64,000 bases of DNA from Janthinobacterium sp. GTDB taxonomy: Bacteria > Pseudomonadota > Gammaproteobacteria > Burkholderiales > Burkholderiaceae_D. Positions within the stretch are counted from its first letter, which is position 1. The number at the start of each line of letters is the position of its first letter. The notes under the pieces were generated by a model, which saw only the letters and a program-made list of their open reading frames with translations, did not search any database and was not told where the DNA came from. The stretch is taken from assembly GCF_009923995.1 (NCBI RefSeq), contig NZ_RFSK01000003.1, forward strand, positions 1 to 64,000, given 5' to 3'. Below are positions 23,334 to 62,260 of this stretch, in pieces. The translations under genes were made by a program, and so were the position numbers.

Positions 23334-23451
23334 ACGCCTCACAAAACCTGCTGCGCGTCGGTATAGGCGGCCTGCGATGCTCACCGTACTTGAGTACAGT
23401 TGCGCTTCTCAGCCACCTCTCCCTTCCGCTCGCTACGGTTTTGTGAGGCGT
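23334..23451 (-). repeat. 118-bp structured repeat, copy 1
   Basis: One of three copies of equal length. Its ends are a perfect 15-bp inverted repeat (ACGCCTCACAAAACC at 23334-23348 and its complement at 23437-23451). A central hairpin is formed by ACCGTACT (23383-23390) and AGTACAGT (23393-23400). Relative to copies 2 and 3 it is inverted. It fills almost all of the 138 bp between convergent orn and the 23465-23809 gene, so it may also act as a transcription barrier there. Confidence 0.9.
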
Positions 23452-24930: not shown

Positions 24931-25048
24931 ACGCCTGGGAAAACCGTCGCGAGCGGCAGTGATTTGTGGCTGAGAAGCGCAACCGTACTTCAGTATGGTG
25001 AGCATCGCAGGCCGCAAAGCGCGACGCGCAGCAGGTTTGCCCAGGCGT
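24931..25048 (+). repeat. 118-bp structured repeat, copy 2
   Basis: Ends ACGCCTGGGAAAACC (24931-24945) and GGTTTGCCCAGGCGT (25034-25048) pair over 14 of 15 positions. The centre is ACCGTACT (24982-24989), TC, AGTATGGT (24992-24999). Compared with copy 1 the outer stem bases CAC/GTG are replaced by GGG/CCC, keeping the pairing. It ends 18 bp before the EamA start codon, so it would form most of that gene's leader. Confidence 0.9.
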
Positions 25049-48297: not shown

Positions 48298-48415
48298 GCG
48301 CCTGACAAAACCGTAGCGAGCGGAAGGAAGAGGTGGCCGAGAAGCGCAACCGTACTAAAGTACGGTGAGCATCGCAGGCCGCCTATGCCGACGCGCAGTA
48401 GGTTTGGTCAGGTGC
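48298..48415 (+). repeat. 118-bp structured repeat, copy 3
   Basis: Ends GCGCCTGACAAAACC (48298-48312) and GGTTTGGTCAGGTGC (48401-48415) pair with one G-U and one mismatch. The perfect central hairpin is ACCGTACT (48349-48356), AA, AGTACGGT (48359-48366). It lies inside the Ter cluster, 2 bp beyond the AIM24 stop, and its orientation is opposite to transcription of the cluster. Confidence 0.9.
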
Positions 48416-48417
48416 CT

Positions 48418-49134
48418 CTAGCCAGCCTTGCCGGAGGCTGTCCATTTGAGGAAGGCGTCGCGGTTGCGCGAGCAGATGAACACCTTGCCCGAGCCGGAAA
48501 AGCGCAGCACGATGCCTTCGCCGCTGGTCACGCTGTTGACGATATTGCCGAGGAAGCCGCCGATGCCGCCGCCGCTGGCGCCGCCGCCCGTGGTGATGGA
48601 AATCTCGTATTTCAGGCTGCTGTCCCAGCACACCACGTGGGAATTGTCGATCACGACATCCTTGCCCGGCTCGACGTCGAGCTGGAACATGGAGCCGAAG
48701 CCCGATACCACCACCTGGCCCGTGCCCGCCGTCTCCATGACGAAGAAGCCGCCCGACTGGGCGAACAGTGCGTTGCCGAGGCTTTGCGTGCGCACCTTCA
48801 TTTCCGTGCCCGAGGTGGCGGCGACAAAGGCGCCGTCGTTGAGCAGGTACTGGCGCGCGCCCACGTCGACCACTTCGATGGCGCCCGGCAGGGTGGGCGA
48901 GAGCAGGCAGTCGCCGCTGCCGCGCACCGCTTCGATGTGCTGCTGGAAGAACGACTCGCCATTGGCGAAGCGGCGCATGATGGCGCTGCCCAGGCCACCG
49001 GTCATCTTGCCCTTCAAATCGAGCGCCGTTTCCATCATCACCATCGCATCGGACTCGCAATAGATGGTTTCGCCCTGTTTCATGCTGACGTGGAGGAAAG
49101 GATCGACGTCGCCGGTGACACTAAATACTGGCAT
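48418..49134 (-). CDS. AIM24/TIGR00266 family protein
   Basis: 238 residues. It fits the AIM24 family of beta-sandwich proteins: FLHVSMKQGETIYCESDAMVMME at the start, MRRFANGESFFQQHIEA, LSPTLPGAIEVVDV, and a late glycine-rich ITTGGGASGGGIGG loop. The family commonly sits beside TerD genes; its biochemical role is unknown. GGAGA precedes the ATG. It follows terD across a terminator and is followed by repeat copy 3. Confidence 0.88.
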   Translation of the reverse strand: MPVFSVTGDVDPFLHVSMKQGETIYCESDAMVMMETALDLKGKMTGGLGSAIMRRFANGESFFQQHIEAVRGSGDCLLSPTLPGAIEVVDVGARQYLLNDGAFVAATSGTEMKVRTQSLGNALFAQSGGFFVMETAGTGQVVVSGFGSMFQLDVEPGKDVVIDNSHVVCWDSSLKYEISITTGGGASGGGIGGFLGNIVNSVTSGEGIVLRFSGSGKVFICSRNRDAFLKWTASGKAG

Positions 49135-53030: not shown

Positions 53031-56000
53031 ATGTTCCTGTCCGATTTCAGTATCAAGCGGCCCACCGCCACCATCGTCCTGATCCTGGCGATGATGTGCG
53101 TCGGCTTGCTGGCGCTCAAGAAACTGCGCGTCAACCAGAATCCCGACGTCGAAGTGCCGTTCATCGTCGTCAGCATTCCCTATCCTGGCGCCTCGCCCGA
53201 CACGGTCGAGCGCGAAGTGGTCAACCGCCTGGAAAAGTCCCTGCAGAGCATTTCCGGCGTGACGGAGATCAACAGCGACTCGAACGAAGGCTCGGCCAGC
53301 ATCTTCCTGAAGTTTTCCTTCAAGACGAACCTGATCGAGGCGTCCGACGACATCCGCAACGCCATCGCCGCCGTGCGCTACAAGCTGCCGCTGGAGATGC
53401 GCGAGCCTATCCTGCAGCGCATCGACCCCGGTGCCGAGCCGATCATGCAGCTGGCCCTGTCGTCCAATTCGCAAAGCCACGCGGAAATCTCGCGCCTGGC
53501 CGAGGACGTGCTGTCGGACCGCTTCCGCGCCGTCGATGGCGTGGCGCTGGTGAACGTGGGCGGCTCGCTGAAGCGCGAACTGTCCGTGCTGCTGCGCGCG
53601 GAAAAGTTGCGTGAGTACAATGTTTCCGTCAGCGATGTCGTCACCGCCCTGCGCAACCAGAACACGAATGCGCCCGTGGGCAAGGTGCGCGGCACCCTGG
53701 ACGAGAAAAGCATCCGCCTCGTGGGCCGCATCGAGTCGCCGTCCGACTTCGAGCAGGTGGTGATCAAGCGCCGCGGCGAGGAAATCGTGCGCCTGGCGCA
53801 AGTGGCGACCATCCAGGACGGCTTTGCCGAAATCAACAGCCTGAGCGTGCGCAGCGGCAAGCCGAACGTGGGGATCTCGATCACCCGCGTGCGCGACGCG
53901 TCCACCGTCAGCGTGGCCAACAAGATCCGCGACATGGTGGCGGAGATCAACAAGACCTTGCCGAAAGGCACGATCCTGCAAGTGACGCGCGACGGCGGCG
54001 AAAACGCCCAGCATAGCCTGAACAACGTGATCGAATCGCTGGTGCTGGGCGCCGTGCTGACCATCTTCGTCGTGTACGCCTTCCTGAACTCGTGGCGCTC
54101 GACCCTGATCACGGCGCTGAGCCTGCCGACGTCCGTCATCGCCGCCTTCATCGCCGTGTGGCTGTGCGGCTTTACCCTGAACTTCATGACCCTGCTGGGC
54201 CTGTCGCTGGCCATCGGCGTGCTGATCGATGACGCCATCGTAGTGCGCGAAAACATCGTGCGCCACATGCAGATGGGCAAGGACCGCCGCACGGCGGCGC
54301 TGGAAGGCACGGCCGAGATCGGCATGGCCGTGGCCGCCACGACCTTCTCCATCATCGCCGTCTTCATCCCCGTCGCCTTCATGCCCGGTATCTCCGGCGA
54401 ATGGTTCCGTCCCTTTGCCTTGACGGTGACGTGCTCGGTGCTCGTCAGCCTGGGCATCTCGTTCACGCTCGACCCCATGCTGTCGGCCTACTGGGGCGAC
54501 CCCGTCGAGGAACACTCGGCGCCGAAAAAAGGCCTGGGCCGCGTGCTGGAGAAATTCAACCACTGGTTCGACCACCAGGCGGACCGCTACGGCCACGTCA
54601 TCGCCTGGGCCCTGCACCACCGCCGCTGGATGGCCGTCATCGCCTTCGGCAGCCTGGTGGGCGCCATCGCCCTGCACGTCTGGCAAGGCGGCACGAGCTT
54701 CCTGCCGGCCTCCGATTCGGGCAACCTGATGATCAACGTGCGCACGCCATCGTCGAGCAGCATCGAGTATTCGCGCCTGAAGCTGGAAGCGGCGGCCGTG
54801 CTGGCACGCACCTTGCCTGAAACCAAGGACACCAACAGTTCCATCAATGCGGGCGGCGGCCGCGTGTATGTCGACATCGGCAAGCGCAACACCCGCAAGC
54901 GTTCGGCCAAGGAAATCGCCACGGAACTGCGCGAGAAGATGTCGCGCCTGGTGGGCGCCGAATACGTGGTGCTCGACGACCTCAGCAATGGTGCGCAAAA
55001 GCCCATCCAGGTGGAATTCACGGGTCCTGATTCGCGCAAGCTGATGGAAATCACCAACGCCTACATGGACAAGCTGCGTGCCATTCCCGGCGCCGTCGAT
55101 GTCGGCCTGTCCGAGCAGGACCCGAAGAACGAGCTGAAGATCGAACTGAACCGTGGCCTGGCCAACTCGATGGGCATTTCCGTCAATGACGCGGCGCAAT
55201 CGCTGCGCGTGGCCTTTGCGGGCGTGGAAGTGGGCGACTGGGTCGATCCGACGGGCGAAACGCGCGATGTGGCCGTGCGCCTACATCCCGATGACCGCGT
55301 GGCCTCCGAGAACATCGAGCGCCTGCCGATCAGCGTGACGGGCACGTCGCAAATGGTGCCGCTGGACCAGATTGCTACCATTACCATGGGCAAGGGACCT
55401 TCCGGCATCGAGCACAAGAACGGCAAGCGCACGATCACCGTCTCGGCCAATGCGCAAGGCCGCTCGAATGGCGAAGTGACGAGCGACGCCATGAAACTGG
55501 CCAAGTCCATCGACTTCCCGCCCGGCTACGGCCTGGCGCTGGGCGGTGCCGGCCAGGACCAGCAGGAACTGTTCACGGAAATGCTGATCGCGCTGGTGAT
55601 GGGTATCGGTTTGATGTATTTGATCCTGGTCATGCAGTTTGGTTCCTTCACGGCGCCGGTGGCCGTCATGATGTCCTTGCCGCTGAGCCTGATCGGCGTG
55701 GTGGTGGCGCTGGTGATTACCGAGAACACCCTCAACCTGATGAGTTTTATCGGCATCATCATGCTCATGGGGCTGGTCGCCAAGAACGCCATCCTGCTGC
55801 TGGACGCGGCGCGCAAGCGCGAGGAAGAGGGGCACGGCCGCGAGGATGCCTTGATGTATGCGGGCCGCATGCGCCTGCGCCCCATCCTGATGACGACGTT
55901 CGCGCTGATCGCCGGCATGTTCCCCGTGGCGCTGGGCCTGGGCGAGGGCGGTGAATTCTACCGTCCGCTGGCGATCGCCATCATCGGCGGCACCATCACC

Positions 56001-56252
56001 TCGACCATCCTGACCCTGCTGGTGGTGCCGACCTTCTACGACAGCATCGAGATCGCCCGCGATGGCGCCGTGGCCAAGTTCCACCGCCGCGCCGCGCGCA
56101 TGCACGTGGCCTTCGCCCTCGTCCTGACGCTGATCGAGTGCGTGCTGACCCTGCTGATGGTGCGTTTCGTCTACCGCATGCTGAAGCTCGTCGTGCTGTA
56201 CCTGATGGGCCGCCGCACGCCTGCGGCCGCGCCGGTCGGCCTGCAGAAGTAA
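53031..56252 (+). CDS. RND efflux permease with C-terminal membrane extension (system 1)
   Basis: 1073 residues. It has the twelve-helix RND layout with two large periplasmic loops. Proton-relay residues are visible in helix 4 (GVLIDDAIVVREN) and helix 10 (LVAKNAILLLDAA). The usual end after helix 12 (TSTILTLLVVPTFYDSIEIAR) is followed by an extra ~60 residues with a long hydrophobic stretch (AFALVLTLIECVLTLLMV then MLKLVVLYLMG), perhaps one or two further helices. It exports drugs or solvents by proton antiport. No outer-membrane channel gene is linked within this transcript. Confidence 0.93.
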   Translation: MFLSDFSIKRPTATIVLILAMMCVGLLALKKLRVNQNPDVEVPFIVVSIPYPGASPDTVEREVVNRLEKSLQSISGVTEINSDSNEGSASIFLKFSFKTNLIEASDDIRNAIAAVRYKLPLEMREPILQRIDPGAEPIMQLALSSNSQSHAEISRLAEDVLSDRFRAVDGVALVNVGGSLKRELSVLLRAEKLREYNVSVSDVVTALRNQNTNAPVGKVRGTLDEKSIRLVGRIESPSDFEQVVIKRRGEEIVRLAQVATIQDGFAEINSLSVRSGKPNVGISITRVRDASTVSVANKIRDMVAEINKTLPKGTILQVTRDGGENAQHSLNNVIESLVLGAVLTIFVVYAFLNSWRSTLITALSLPTSVIAAFIAVWLCGFTLNFMTLLGLSLAIGVLIDDAIVVRENIVRHMQMGKDRRTAALEGTAEIGMAVAATTFSIIAVFIPVAFMPGISGEWFRPFALTVTCSVLVSLGISFTLDPMLSAYWGDPVEEHSAPKKGLGRVLEKFNHWFDHQADRYGHVIAWALHHRRWMAVIAFGSLVGAIALHVWQGGTSFLPASDSGNLMINVRTPSSSSIEYSRLKLEAAAVLARTLPETKDTNSSINAGGGRVYVDIGKRNTRKRSAKEIATELREKMSRLVGAEYVVLDDLSNGAQKPIQVEFTGPDSRKLMEITNAYMDKLRAIPGAVDVGLSEQDPKNELKIELNRGLANSMGISVNDAAQSLRVAFAGVEVGDWVDPTGETRDVAVRLHPDDRVASENIERLPISVTGTSQMVPLDQIATITMGKGPSGIEHKNGKRTITVSANAQGRSNGEVTSDAMKLAKSIDFPPGYGLALGGAGQDQQELFTEMLIALVMGIGLMYLILVMQFGSFTAPVAVMMSLPLSLIGVVVALVITENTLNLMSFIGIIMLMGLVAKNAILLLDAARKREEEGHGREDALMYAGRMRLRPILMTTFALIAGMFPVALGLGEGGEFYRPLAIAIIGGTITSTILTLLVVPTFYDSIEIARDGAVAKFHRRAARMHVAFALVLTLIECVLTLLMVRFVYRMLKLVVLYLMGRRTPAAAPVGLQK

Positions 56253-59191: not shown

Positions 59192-62100
59192 ATGAATTTC
59201 ACCGATATCTTTATCCGCCGGCCCGTGCTGGCGATGGTGGTGAGCCTGCTGCTGGTGGTGCTGGGATTGCGTTCCCTGTTCAGCCTGCCGATCAACCAGT
59301 ATCCGAAGACGCAGAACGCGGTGGTGACCATTTCCACCACCTACTACGGGGCCGATGCGCAGACGGTGGCCGGTTTCATCACGCAGCCGCTGGAATCGGC
59401 CATCGCGCAGGCGCAGGGCATCGATTACCTGTCCTCGTCGAGCAGCAGTGGCGTGTCGACCATCACGGCCACCCTGCGCCTCAATTACGATGCGAACCGG
59501 GCTTTGACGGAAATCAATACCCAGGTCAGTTCCGTGCGCAACCAGCTGCCGGCGCAGGCCCAGGCGCCCGTGCTGACGGTGCAGACGGGGCAGACGACGG
59601 ATGCCATGTACCTGGGCTTTTACAGCAAGACCTTGCCGACGAATAATGTGACGGATTACCTCAGCCGCGTCGTCAAGCCCAAGCTCGACTCCATCAGCGG
59701 CGTGCAGACGGCCGAACTGCTGGGCGCGCGCCTGTTCGCCCTGCGCGCCTGGCTCGATGCGGACAAGATGGCCGCCTTCGGCGTGACGGCGGCCGACGTC
59801 AGCACGGCGCTGGGCAACAACAACTACCTGGCGGCGCTCGGTTCCAGCAAGGGGCAGATGGTGACCATTCCCCTGACGGCGGGCACGGACCTGCATTCGG
59901 TGGACGAATTCAGGCAGCTCGTCGTCAAGCGCAGCGGCGACTCCATCGTGCGCCTGCAAGACCTGGCCACGGTCGTGCTGGGATCGGAAAACTATGACTT
60001 CAACGTGGCCTTCAGCGGCGTGCGTTCCGTCTTCATCGGCATCAAGGTGGCGCCGGAAGCGAATATCCTCGACGTGGCCCAGCGCGTGCGCGCCGCCTTT
60101 CCCGACATCCGCTCGCAGTTGCCGGCGGGGCTGACGGGCGAGATCGTGTATGACTCGACCTTCTTCATCAATACCTCCATCCGTGAAGTCATCAAGACCC
60201 TGGTCGAGGCGCTGCTGATCGTCACCATCGTCATCTTCCTGTTCCTGGGCAGCCTGCGGGCCGTCATCGTGCCCGTGATCGCCATGCCGCTGTCCCTCGT
60301 CGGCACGTTCGCCGTCATGCTGGCGCTCGGCTACTCCATCAATCTGCTGACCCTGCTGGCCATCGTGTTGGCCATCGGCCTCGTGGTCGACGACGCCATC
60401 ATCGTGGTGGAAAACGTCGACCGCCACATGAAGCTGGGCCAGCCGCCGCTGCAGGCCAGCCTGCTGGCGGCGCGCGAGCTGGGCAGCCCGATCCTGGCCA
60501 TGACGGTGGTGCTCATCGCCGTCTACGTGCCCATCGGCTTCCAGGGCGGCCTGACGGGCGCGCTGTTCACGGAGTTCGCCTTCACCCTGGCCGGCGCCGT
60601 GGCTGTCTCGGGCATCGTGGCCCTGAGCCTGTCGCCCATGATGTGTTCGCGCTTTTTCCGTCCGGAACAGGACAGCGGGCGCTTCGTGCAAGCCATCGAC
60701 CGTGTCTTCGGCAAGGTCCATGAGCGCTACCGGCGCATCCTGCACAGCCTGCTCGACACCTGGCTGGTGCTGGTCGTGATGGCGGCCCTGCTGATGCTGG
60801 TACTGGGGCTGATGTTCAGGATGGCGCAGTCCGAACTGGCGCCCGAGGAAGACCAGGGCGTCGTGCTGTCGCAGGTGGTGGGCGACCCGACGGCCACCTC
60901 GGACCAGATGCAGACCTATGCCGAGCAGATTTACCAGGTGGCCAGGGGCATGCCGGAATACAGCCAGATGTTCCAGATCACGGGCGTGCCGACTGTCAAC
61001 TCCGGCTTTGGCGGCATGCTGATGACGCCGTGGAATGCGCGCACGCGCAGCGCCCAGCAGGTGCAGCAGGACTTGCAGGCGGGCTGGAACAGGATCGCCG
61101 GCGCGCGCGTGGCCGCCTTCCAGTTTCCCGCCTTGCCCGGCTCTTCGGGCTTGCCCGTGCAATTCGTCATCACCACCACGGAGCCGTTTGAAAACCTCAA
61201 CACCGTCGCGCAGCAGGTGCTCGACAAGGCGCGCGCGTCGGGCAAGTTCTATTTCATCGACACGGACTTGAAGATTGACAAGCCGCAAGCGACCGTCGTG
61301 GTCGACCGCGACAACGTGGCCGCGCTGGGCATGACGCAGCAGGACGTGGGCGCGGCCCTGGGGGCGGCGCTGGGCGGCGGCTACGTCAATTACTTTTCCA
61401 TCGCCGGACGCTCGTACAAGGTGATCCCGCAGGTGCTGCAGGTGGACCGCCTGAATCCGTCTGCAGTGCTCGACTTCCATATCCGCACGCCCGACGGCGC
61501 CATGCTGCCGGCCAGCACCGTGGCGCACATCCGCTACGATGTCGTGCCCGAATCGATCAACCGCTTCCAGCAGCTCAATTCCGCCACCCTGTCCGGCGTG
61601 TCCGGTGCGTCGCAGGGCGAAGTGCTGGCATTCATGCGGCAAGCCGTGGCCGAGGCGGCGCCCAGCGGCTACACGGTCGATTATGCGGGCCAGTCGCGCC
61701 AGTTCGTGCAGGAATCAGGCGGCTTCGTCGTCACCATGCTGTTTGCCGTCGTCATCGTCTTCCTGGCGCTGGCGGCGCAGTTCGAGAGTTTCCGCGACCC
61801 CGTCGTGATCCTCGTCTCCGTGCCGCTGGCCCTGTTTGGCGCCACCATGTTCATCTTCCTGGGTTTTGCCTCGATCAACATTTACACGGAGGTGGGCCTG
61901 GTGACCCTGATGGGGCTGATCAGCAAGCACGGCATCCTGATCGTGGAAGTGGCCAACCAGCTGCAAAAGGCGGGCAGGAGCAAGCGCGAGGCGGTGGAAG
62001 AGGCTGCCACCGTGCGCCTGCGCCCCATCCTGATGACGACGGCCGCCATGGTGTTTGGCGTGCTGCCGCTCGTGATCGCCTCTGGCGCGGGCGCGGCCGG

Positions 62101-62260
62101 GCGCCACGCGATGGGGCTGGTGATTTTCACGGGTTTGTCCATCGGCACCCTGTTTACCCTGTTCGTCGTGCCGGCCATGTACCTGTTCCTTGCCGCCGAT
62201 CACCAGGCCCTGCGTGCCGGCGCGGCGGACAGCGCGACGGAGGAAGTGCTGGCGCACTGA
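59192..62260 (+). CDS. RND efflux permease (system 2, MdtC/MexI-like)
   Basis: 1022 residues. The twelve-helix RND fold is complete: NFTDIFIRRPVLAMVVSLLLVVLGL at the start, helix 4 GLVVDDAIIVVENVDRH with the proton-relay aspartates, helix 10 GLISKHGILIVEVANQ and helices 11-12 RLRPILMTTAAMVFGVLPLV. This length and the ISKHGILIVE form fit the MexI/MdtC-like branch. It ends normally, unlike the system 1 permease. It is the last gene of the channel-adaptor-pump operon. Confidence 0.94.
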   Translation: MNFTDIFIRRPVLAMVVSLLLVVLGLRSLFSLPINQYPKTQNAVVTISTTYYGADAQTVAGFITQPLESAIAQAQGIDYLSSSSSSGVSTITATLRLNYDANRALTEINTQVSSVRNQLPAQAQAPVLTVQTGQTTDAMYLGFYSKTLPTNNVTDYLSRVVKPKLDSISGVQTAELLGARLFALRAWLDADKMAAFGVTAADVSTALGNNNYLAALGSSKGQMVTIPLTAGTDLHSVDEFRQLVVKRSGDSIVRLQDLATVVLGSENYDFNVAFSGVRSVFIGIKVAPEANILDVAQRVRAAFPDIRSQLPAGLTGEIVYDSTFFINTSIREVIKTLVEALLIVTIVIFLFLGSLRAVIVPVIAMPLSLVGTFAVMLALGYSINLLTLLAIVLAIGLVVDDAIIVVENVDRHMKLGQPPLQASLLAARELGSPILAMTVVLIAVYVPIGFQGGLTGALFTEFAFTLAGAVAVSGIVALSLSPMMCSRFFRPEQDSGRFVQAIDRVFGKVHERYRRILHSLLDTWLVLVVMAALLMLVLGLMFRMAQSELAPEEDQGVVLSQVVGDPTATSDQMQTYAEQIYQVARGMPEYSQMFQITGVPTVNSGFGGMLMTPWNARTRSAQQVQQDLQAGWNRIAGARVAAFQFPALPGSSGLPVQFVITTTEPFENLNTVAQQVLDKARASGKFYFIDTDLKIDKPQATVVVDRDNVAALGMTQQDVGAALGAALGGGYVNYFSIAGRSYKVIPQVLQVDRLNPSAVLDFHIRTPDGAMLPASTVAHIRYDVVPESINRFQQLNSATLSGVSGASQGEVLAFMRQAVAEAAPSGYTVDYAGQSRQFVQESGGFVVTMLFAVVIVFLALAAQFESFRDPVVILVSVPLALFGATMFIFLGFASINIYTEVGLVTLMGLISKHGILIVEVANQLQKAGRSKREAVEEAATVRLRPILMTTAAMVFGVLPLVIASGAGAAGRHAMGLVIFTGLSIGTLFTLFVVPAMYLFLAADHQALRAGAADSATEEVLAH

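Follow-up and report, generated by a model that had tools for sequence, protein, structure and literature searches.

A family of MITE-like hairpin elements in Proteobacteria in which the fold of one strand is under purifying selection after insertion

We have shown here that three 118-bp repeats in a Janthinobacterium contig belong to a family of elements that are MITE-like by anatomy, with inverted repeats at their ends, flanking TNA repeats (seen in relatives and at a single clean site) and, in one relative, an end that agrees with that of a resident IS5-family element, and that the fold of one strand is kept by purifying selection after insertion, as demonstrated statistically at loci shared between species. 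Taken as a whole, our reading of the family as a two-module mobile element with a selected RNA-like fold is one that we accept on balance, more firmly for mobility than for function. Small palindromic repeats are commonly dismissed as selfish debris or serve as typing markers. Here the folded form is under measurable purifying selection once inserted, on one strand, and the family is large: several genomes hold at least 100 copies, and relatives extend beyond a single order. More than 100 natural copies, together with the empty sites in sister species, make it possible to test whether repeats of this kind function as RNA.

The window, that is, the whole stretch of 64,000 nucleotides that was analysed, contains three copies of exactly the length and at the positions given in a preliminary description of this DNA. 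A covariance model built from 29 copies recovers these three across the window and no further ones. The copies and the parts of the third are as follows.

23334..23451, minus strand: copy 1, 118 bp, in the opposite orientation to copies 2 and 3; on one side is an exonuclease gene of the RNase_T family, whose stop is 7 bp from the right end of the element, and on the other a convergent ORF lacking a Pfam match
24931..25048, plus strand: copy 2, 118 bp, flanked by divergent LysR-type and EamA-type genes
48298..48415, plus strand: copy 3, 118 bp
48298..48312, plus strand: copy 3, left arm of the outer stem (terminal inverted repeat)
48313..48323, plus strand: copy 3, conserved loop strand GTAGCGAGCGG, GA side of the first GA/GCA internal loop
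48339..48348, plus strand: copy 3, conserved loop strand GAGAAGCGCA, GA, A and GCA sides of three internal loops
48349..48355, plus strand: copy 3, left arm of the apical 7-bp stem
48360..48366, plus strand: copy 3, right arm of the apical 7-bp stem
48367..48376, plus strand: copy 3, conserved loop strand GAGCATCGCA, partner of GAGAAGCGCA
48392..48400, plus strand: copy 3, conserved loop strand CGCGCAGTA, GCA side of the first internal loop
48401..48415, plus strand: copy 3, right arm of the outer stem

The right end of copy 3 lies 2 nt from the stop (CTA, that is, TAG) of an antisense AIM24-family gene (48418-49134), and copy 2 lies 18 nt upstream of the predicted EamA start and is not stop-adjacent. 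The site of copy 1 is occupied too in L073, L137 and L182, and that of copy 3 in L141. Stem bases 7-9 read CAC/GTG, GGG/CCC and GAC/GTC, and base 1 reads A-T, A-T and G-C, as originally described. The 15-bp terminal stem of that description is perfect in copy 1 and carries an A.G mismatch at pair 10 in copies 2 and 3, with an additional G.T at pair 3 in copy 3. Likewise, the apical hairpin described as conserved has the exact form ACCGTACT-NN-AGTACGGT in copy 3 only, with one change in each of the others. The 118-bp unit stands above chance in the window; its 15-16 bp cores taken alone, with 3 mismatches allowed, do not. With room for at most 39 codons, the element is non-coding.

The search of the genome and its relatives with a covariance model that the preliminary description had proposed reveals at least 104 distinct loci in the host genome and copies in other genera. 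The host genome (6.18 Mb) gave 138 model matches at E<=10 among 150 candidates scored, including weaker opposite-strand duplicates; the count of 104 leaves out those duplicates, matches below ~50 bits and C36:100696. None of the 104 lies inside a predicted gene. A first-look sequence search had found at least 40 copies at 76-100% identity (40 of 134 candidates scored). Across 37 genomes of the genus, copy number ranges from 0 or 1 up to at least 58, and matches are present in 34, the exceptions being two incomplete genomes and one other (G027), which gave one weak match in a further search. Two genomes (G001 and G022) hold one strong copy each, in which the loops are kept and many stem bases are changed. 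The record of Janthinobacterium sp. LM6 gives 113 model matches. Family members are mostly 117-146 bp long, and copies also occur in Massilia, Herbaspirillum, Collimonas, Ralstonia, Zoogloea and Hylemonella records. The hosts include many bacteria of soil and water.

In a phylum-wide sample of 398 genomes, with the best 8 candidates at most scored per genome under strict filters, matches were found in at least 31. Nine of these genomes, the host included, are in the host's order and account for all strong matches (>=79 bits); three belong to a single family in another part of the class, and 19 are from other parts of the phylum. Matches in the 19 are mostly single and weak, several retaining the GAGAAGCGCA/GAGCATC core, and are candidate members of the family. 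Genomes such as G081, G187, G219 and G314, among others (L431, L432, L433, L435), have few and weak matches, some of them AT-rich, with the GAGAAGCGCA/GAGCATC loops retained, and these may be older branches of the family. Plasmid and phage collections searched with the element gave no match, and the element is not named in the literature titles and abstract openings searched, where coverage is thin for subscription papers.

Orthologous sites are empty in some genomes and occupied in others. A clean empty site (L175) compared with an occupied one (L057), with flanks 97.5% and 96.5% alike, lacks 124 bases, which correspond to a 121-bp element and a TTA repeat. In a genome of another family (G056) 32 of 45 copies are bounded immediately on either side by the same TNA triplet, where random pairing predicts 13.9 identical triplets. 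In a Zoogloea record the same TNA triplet lies 2 nt further out in 6 of 18 copies (for example CTGAGA-element-TCTGAA), and triplets at this offset are identical, whatever their kind, in 7 cases as against 2.5 expected. Over the 192 copies of the Janthinobacterium set, the expected offset shows no notable excess of matching direct repeats. The copies did not prove to be fragments of a longer ordinary mobile element, as the preliminary description had allowed they might.

IS5-family insertion sequences use TNA-type targets, and one relative (G055) carries a resident IS5-family element (NF033581, 305 bits against a cut-off of 140). The left end of this insertion sequence, CAGGCCGTTGAAAAAC, is identical over 16 bases to the left arm of our element in 4 of the 6 copies read, the other 2 having other stems, and the right ends of both the insertion sequence and the element are each one base off the left-end sequence. 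The likeness stops at the ends: beyond those examined, the insertion sequence does not resemble the hairpin core. An autonomous partner with the Janthinobacterium ends was not recognised in the host genome or in LM6 by a free-end pattern search allowing one mismatch, and the DDE_Tnp_1 genes of G000 and G014, considered as partners, have no similar ends beside them at three mismatches. The pattern search returned forms of 132-145 nt, forms of 36-41 bp and single arms away from the listed copies; eight predicted proteins near three of these arms (L410, L411, L417) include no transposase by Pfam. We infer transposition in Janthinobacterium from the empty sites and from the relatives. Mobilisation by a reverse transcriptase can be dismissed, there being no PF00078 match in six genomes with at least 50 element-model matches each (G000, G002, G004, G014, G016 and G023).

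The 36-41 bp forms are mini-hairpins made of the outer arms and a short core remnant (L405, L408 and L409 in the host genome, L413 and L415 in LM6), and are probably internal deletions. The flanks of L409 and L415 are identical, so that one mini-hairpin site is common to two species.

The whole element forms one long hairpin in which internal loops are conserved and stems are exchanged. From the base, the outer stem is followed by a GTA/A bulge, GC/GC, a GA/GCA loop, GCG/CGC and a long inner stem; beyond this come a second GA/GCA loop, GA/TC, A/A, GC/GC, a GCA/GA loop and the apical stem of 7 bp. The loops are the most conserved part of the element, and the loop strand GTAGCGAGCGG is mostly invariant or nearly so in both alignments that we analysed. 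The first of these holds 29 host-genome copies (30 loci minus L019, which has a loop insertion). Here 21 of 44 pairs have changed on both sides, a number that none of 500 column shuffles reached (mean 11.0), and 91.1% of cells are paired, as against 84.2% after shuffling and 29.5-41.3% when partners are slid by 1-3 columns. The second holds 18 sequences, drawn from seven or more genera and from several unplaced bins. In it, both sides have changed in 36 of 49 pairs (23.6 shuffled), including all 18 outer pairs; doubly changed cells number 178 (55.6 shuffled); 90.1% of cells are paired (71.2% shuffled, 33.3-40.9% slid); and the covariation score is 0.558 against 0.184. Subfamilies within the host genome have entirely different inner stems, and some copies have unrelated yet mostly complementary outer stems.

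That the fold is maintained, and not the sequence alone, as first proposed, thus holds in the host-genome copies, in the multi-genus sequences and at orthologous loci (see below), and covariation exceeds the controls, namely column shuffles, slid partners and flanks at orthologous loci. The original inference from compensatory change in three copies reached the right conclusion on weaker grounds than claimed, because terminal inverted repeats, which are present in the copies listed though degenerate in some, pair by construction. Since pairing of the outer arms is inherent in inverted repeats, the argument for the fold rests on the inner stems and on the orthologue comparison.

When the 29 host-genome copies are read in one orientation they contain 71 G.T against 12 A.C pairs, 25 of the 71 from one nearly fixed column, and 61 copies from six other genera give 122 against 28 with two mostly-G.U columns left out. 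The bias has the same direction in each neighbour context (G.T/A.C: << 110/40, >< 73/36, >> 34/14). We separated history from present selection by comparing copies at the same site in different genomes, where 25 clusters yielded 15 usable pairs, one per cluster, each the most divergent of equal length. Single stem changes in these pairs preserve a G.U 30 times and produce an A.C 4 times (binomial p 6e-6), in a sample that is small and whose clusters may share species; omission of an outlier locus (L050) leaves 27 against 4 (p 3e-5). A further 13 single changes break a pair and 2 alter an unpaired cell, and double changes keep pairing 12 times and lose it 5 times. The flanks within 60 bp show no such bias (39 C/T against 32 A/G). 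This excess of G.U over A.C, with even flanks, indicates that the fold of one strand is still selected after insertion. Across 32 comparable orthologous pairs, paired sites (194/2812) are substituted at the same rate as unpaired ones (68/964), so the constraint is on the type of pair rather than on rate. Of 14 examples that were folded, 11 are more stable on the plus strand of the element. Selection thus concerns the strand that runs antisense to the adjacent gene; at 49 of 100 loci this strand is antisense to both neighbours.

These observations bear on the best surviving alternative, that the copies are ordinary MITEs whose arms pair as terminal inverted repeats and in which quasi-palindrome correction during replication restores pairing, so that the fold has no function. 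The MITE anatomy and the existence of internally deleted 36-41 bp derivatives fit this account, as does the pair L050 and L083, whose 22 differences with 7 paired double changes would suit a templated or conversion event. Yet template correction should close the internal loops and the A.G at pair 10 (found in 15 of 29 copies), whereas the loops are what is best conserved, and it predicts no strand bias, in conflict with the ratio of 30 to 4 at shared loci beside even flanks. We consider this explanation unlikely. As to L050 itself, 20-22 of its 118 positions are different in L083, L111 and L114, including 5-7 paired double changes, although the flanks are ~95% alike; this may reflect local replacement or conversion of the element in place.

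The elements with a selected fold are also oriented with respect to the genes predicted by a simple home-made gene finder. Among 100 host-genome copies with both neighbours, 83 have an antisense gene at the right end, and 75 of these 83 right ends lie at most 9 bp from, or overlap, the antisense stop codon (58 lie 0-9 bp away and 17 overlap it, by as much as 13 bp), with 30 copies exactly 2 bp from the stop; uniform placement predicts 17.8, a figure that covers the 0-9 bp class only. Left ends are that close to a stop in 8 of 48 cases, where 13.5 are expected. The stops at the 75 right ends are TAA (30), TAG (23) and TGA (22), compared with 166, 68 and 135 for genes in general. The same arrangement is seen in Ralstonia sp. 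A12 (13 of 14 right ends 0-4 bp from a stop) and Herbaspirillum (4 of 4 within 6 bp), and in Zoogloea both element ends are used. A stop preference is not evident in G056 (6 of 23 right ends and 4 of 29 left ends lie within 9 bp of a stop) or in the few Massilia cases. Target choice by translation was considered as the cause of stop adjacency and set aside for a TNA target followed by survival, which is the simpler reading given that empty sites exist and that other genomes show TNA flanks. As TNA includes TAA and TGA, insertion there rebuilds the stop and would be tolerated. A TNA target explains neither the TAG stops (23 of 75) nor the 75:8 orientation bias.

The element had been described as matching nothing that could be named. 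This needs correction, since its anatomy is MITE-like and the family is distantly related to the Rfam family sX9 (RF02228), and so is not wholly unknown. An Rfam scan of the window at gathering level returns 5S rRNA only, with copy 3 scoring 13.8 bits against the sX9 cut-off of 44. In a permissive search of 18 related loci sX9 appears on the opposite strand with a best score of 39.8 bits, again below that cut-off. The relationship is clearest in a genome of another family of the same class (G420), where all 5 matches to the multi-genus model (E<=1e-5) coincide, on the opposite strand, with sX9 members scoring 63.5-87.8 bits. Sub-cut-off sX9 matches with a similar offset occur in Ralstonia sp. 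A12, G056, G059 and LM6 copies in a selected list; its overlap of 24 out of 24 reflects selection by eye for overlap, the unselected figure being the 5 of 5 in G420. The sX9 model, of 76 nt, spans about half of the hairpin and is drawn on the other strand, whereas the present element is the full hairpin; sX9 thereby gains a full-length hairpin and a mobile-element context.

An alternative that follows from this kinship is that the copies are true sX9-like small-RNA genes on the Rfam strand, that is, on the 3' UTR side of the stop-adjacent gene, merely spread by transposition. The accessible text of two papers places sX9 among the 20 most prevalent sRNAs (PMC9029176) and Xanthomonas sX9 genes among copper-induced transcripts (PMC10924375), and the portions of the sX9 literature available to us do not describe it as a mobile palindrome, in contrast to the mobile, palindromic element studied here. 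Both the prevalence and the transcripts favor this alternative, and in 22 of the 24 entries of the selected list the sX9 match on that strand has its 3' end at 4-9 nt from the left end of the element. Against it, the G.U bias is opposite in every set that we counted, the plus-strand fold is the more stable in the proportion given above, and the model covers only part of the hairpin. We regard it as distinctly improbable. The same strand assignment weighs against our own RNA reading, in that the sole relative for which a transcript has been reported is drawn on the other strand.

Integron attC sites lie directly after a stop codon, act through one folded strand and have a conserved structure with variable stems. 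The present element resembles them in its stop adjacency, its one folded strand and its variable stems within a conserved structure; it differs in that copies are dispersed and that, at the empty sites read, the neighbouring gene remains while the element is absent. It is thus conceivable that the folded form is single-stranded DNA recognised by a single-strand recombinase, as for attC or for REP sequences with their RAYT transposases, although we find this the least probable of the alternatives. As in attC, it is the strand antisense to the stop-adjacent gene that is under selection, and G.T pairs would favor a fold of single-stranded DNA too. A GTAG lies at the base of the inner hairpin, and all 24 genus genomes have at least one Y1 transposase match. 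However, none of the 24 has an integron integrase over cut-off, the two genomes with one strong copy (G001 and G022) still carry Y1 matches, selection on the fold persists at shared loci, and the TNA repeats and IS5-like ends indicate a DDE enzyme. Of the two Y1 matches in the host genome, one is more than 13 kb from the nearest listed element match and the contig of the other has none. REP/BIME sequences with RAYT are, in the accessible text of PMC3733652, palindromic and extragenic with a GTAG motif, like our element, but measure 20-40 bp rather than 118 bp, and the elements described here flank no Y1 gene of the host genome.

We therefore return to the two-module reading. The copies would constitute a proteobacterial family of non-autonomous, MITE-like elements in which the outer module, the stem of 15-18 bp, serves as the terminal inverted repeat on which an IS5-type DDE transposase presumably acts, with insertion into TNA triplets and formation of a 3-bp repeat. 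The inner module would be the long hairpin with its repeated GA/GCA internal loops, so that a conserved RNA-like core is combined with exchangeable transposon ends. At shared loci, selection keeps the single-stranded fold of the strand that is antisense to the stop-adjacent gene. This folded form would be an RNA produced by transcription entering at the element's far side, and the element probably acts as RNA. At a guess, such a hairpin might be processed or terminate transcription as a 3' boundary, so that less antisense or read-through transcription enters the gene; as to function, our best guess is a strand-specific RNA boundary element at the 3' ends of genes. A broader and more tentative proposal, to which we give less credence than to the two-module reading, is of a proteobacterial mobile RNA superfamily in which the selected core borrows the ends of whichever IS5-like transposon is resident, targets stops in a fixed orientation and then acts as a strand-specific 3'-end boundary, sX9 being one branch.

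Comparable elements are known. ERIC, Correia/NEMIS and YPAL are imperfect palindromes of ~100-170 bp that are intergenic and multicopy, duplicate their target and give foldable RNA. Size, palindromy, intergenic location, copy number and foldability are shared with the present element, and probably target duplication too, but ERIC and Correia target TA, whereas our element has a 3-bp TNA target. Unlike in ERIC-type MITEs, its stems are exchanged across genera while the loops are kept, and selection at shared loci is strand-biased. ERIC and NEMIS are named in the accessible parts of PMC3110155 and PMC2267715. The first of these also describes BRE (Betaproteobacterial repeat element, Hot 2011), which is repeated and mostly intergenic, as is our element in Betaproteobacteria; BRE, likened here by description and not by sequence, is 75-91 bp in full length and often tandem, and the table in the available text (PMC3110155) lists no Oxalobacteraceae.

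A longer form of the element, of 142-145 nt, occurs in the host genome (L210:1501-1650, L244, L245:1501-1651, L246 and L250) and in LM6 (L412, L414, L418 and L419). It carries inserted blocks like GGCTCGGCGCCCCC and GGGGGCGCCGAGCC that are largely complementary to each other; a helix between these two would cross the main inner helix, possibly as a pseudoknot or a switch. At one locus of another genome (L255 in G026) two copies, at 982-1104 and 1144-1265, stand in direct tandem with a repeated spacer. Elsewhere in the window, positions 1-89 are the end of a 5S rRNA gene, and two long ORFs on the same strand, 53031-56252 and 59192-62260, share stretches of 52 and 81 nt that are 77% and 72% identical, and are perhaps paralogues.
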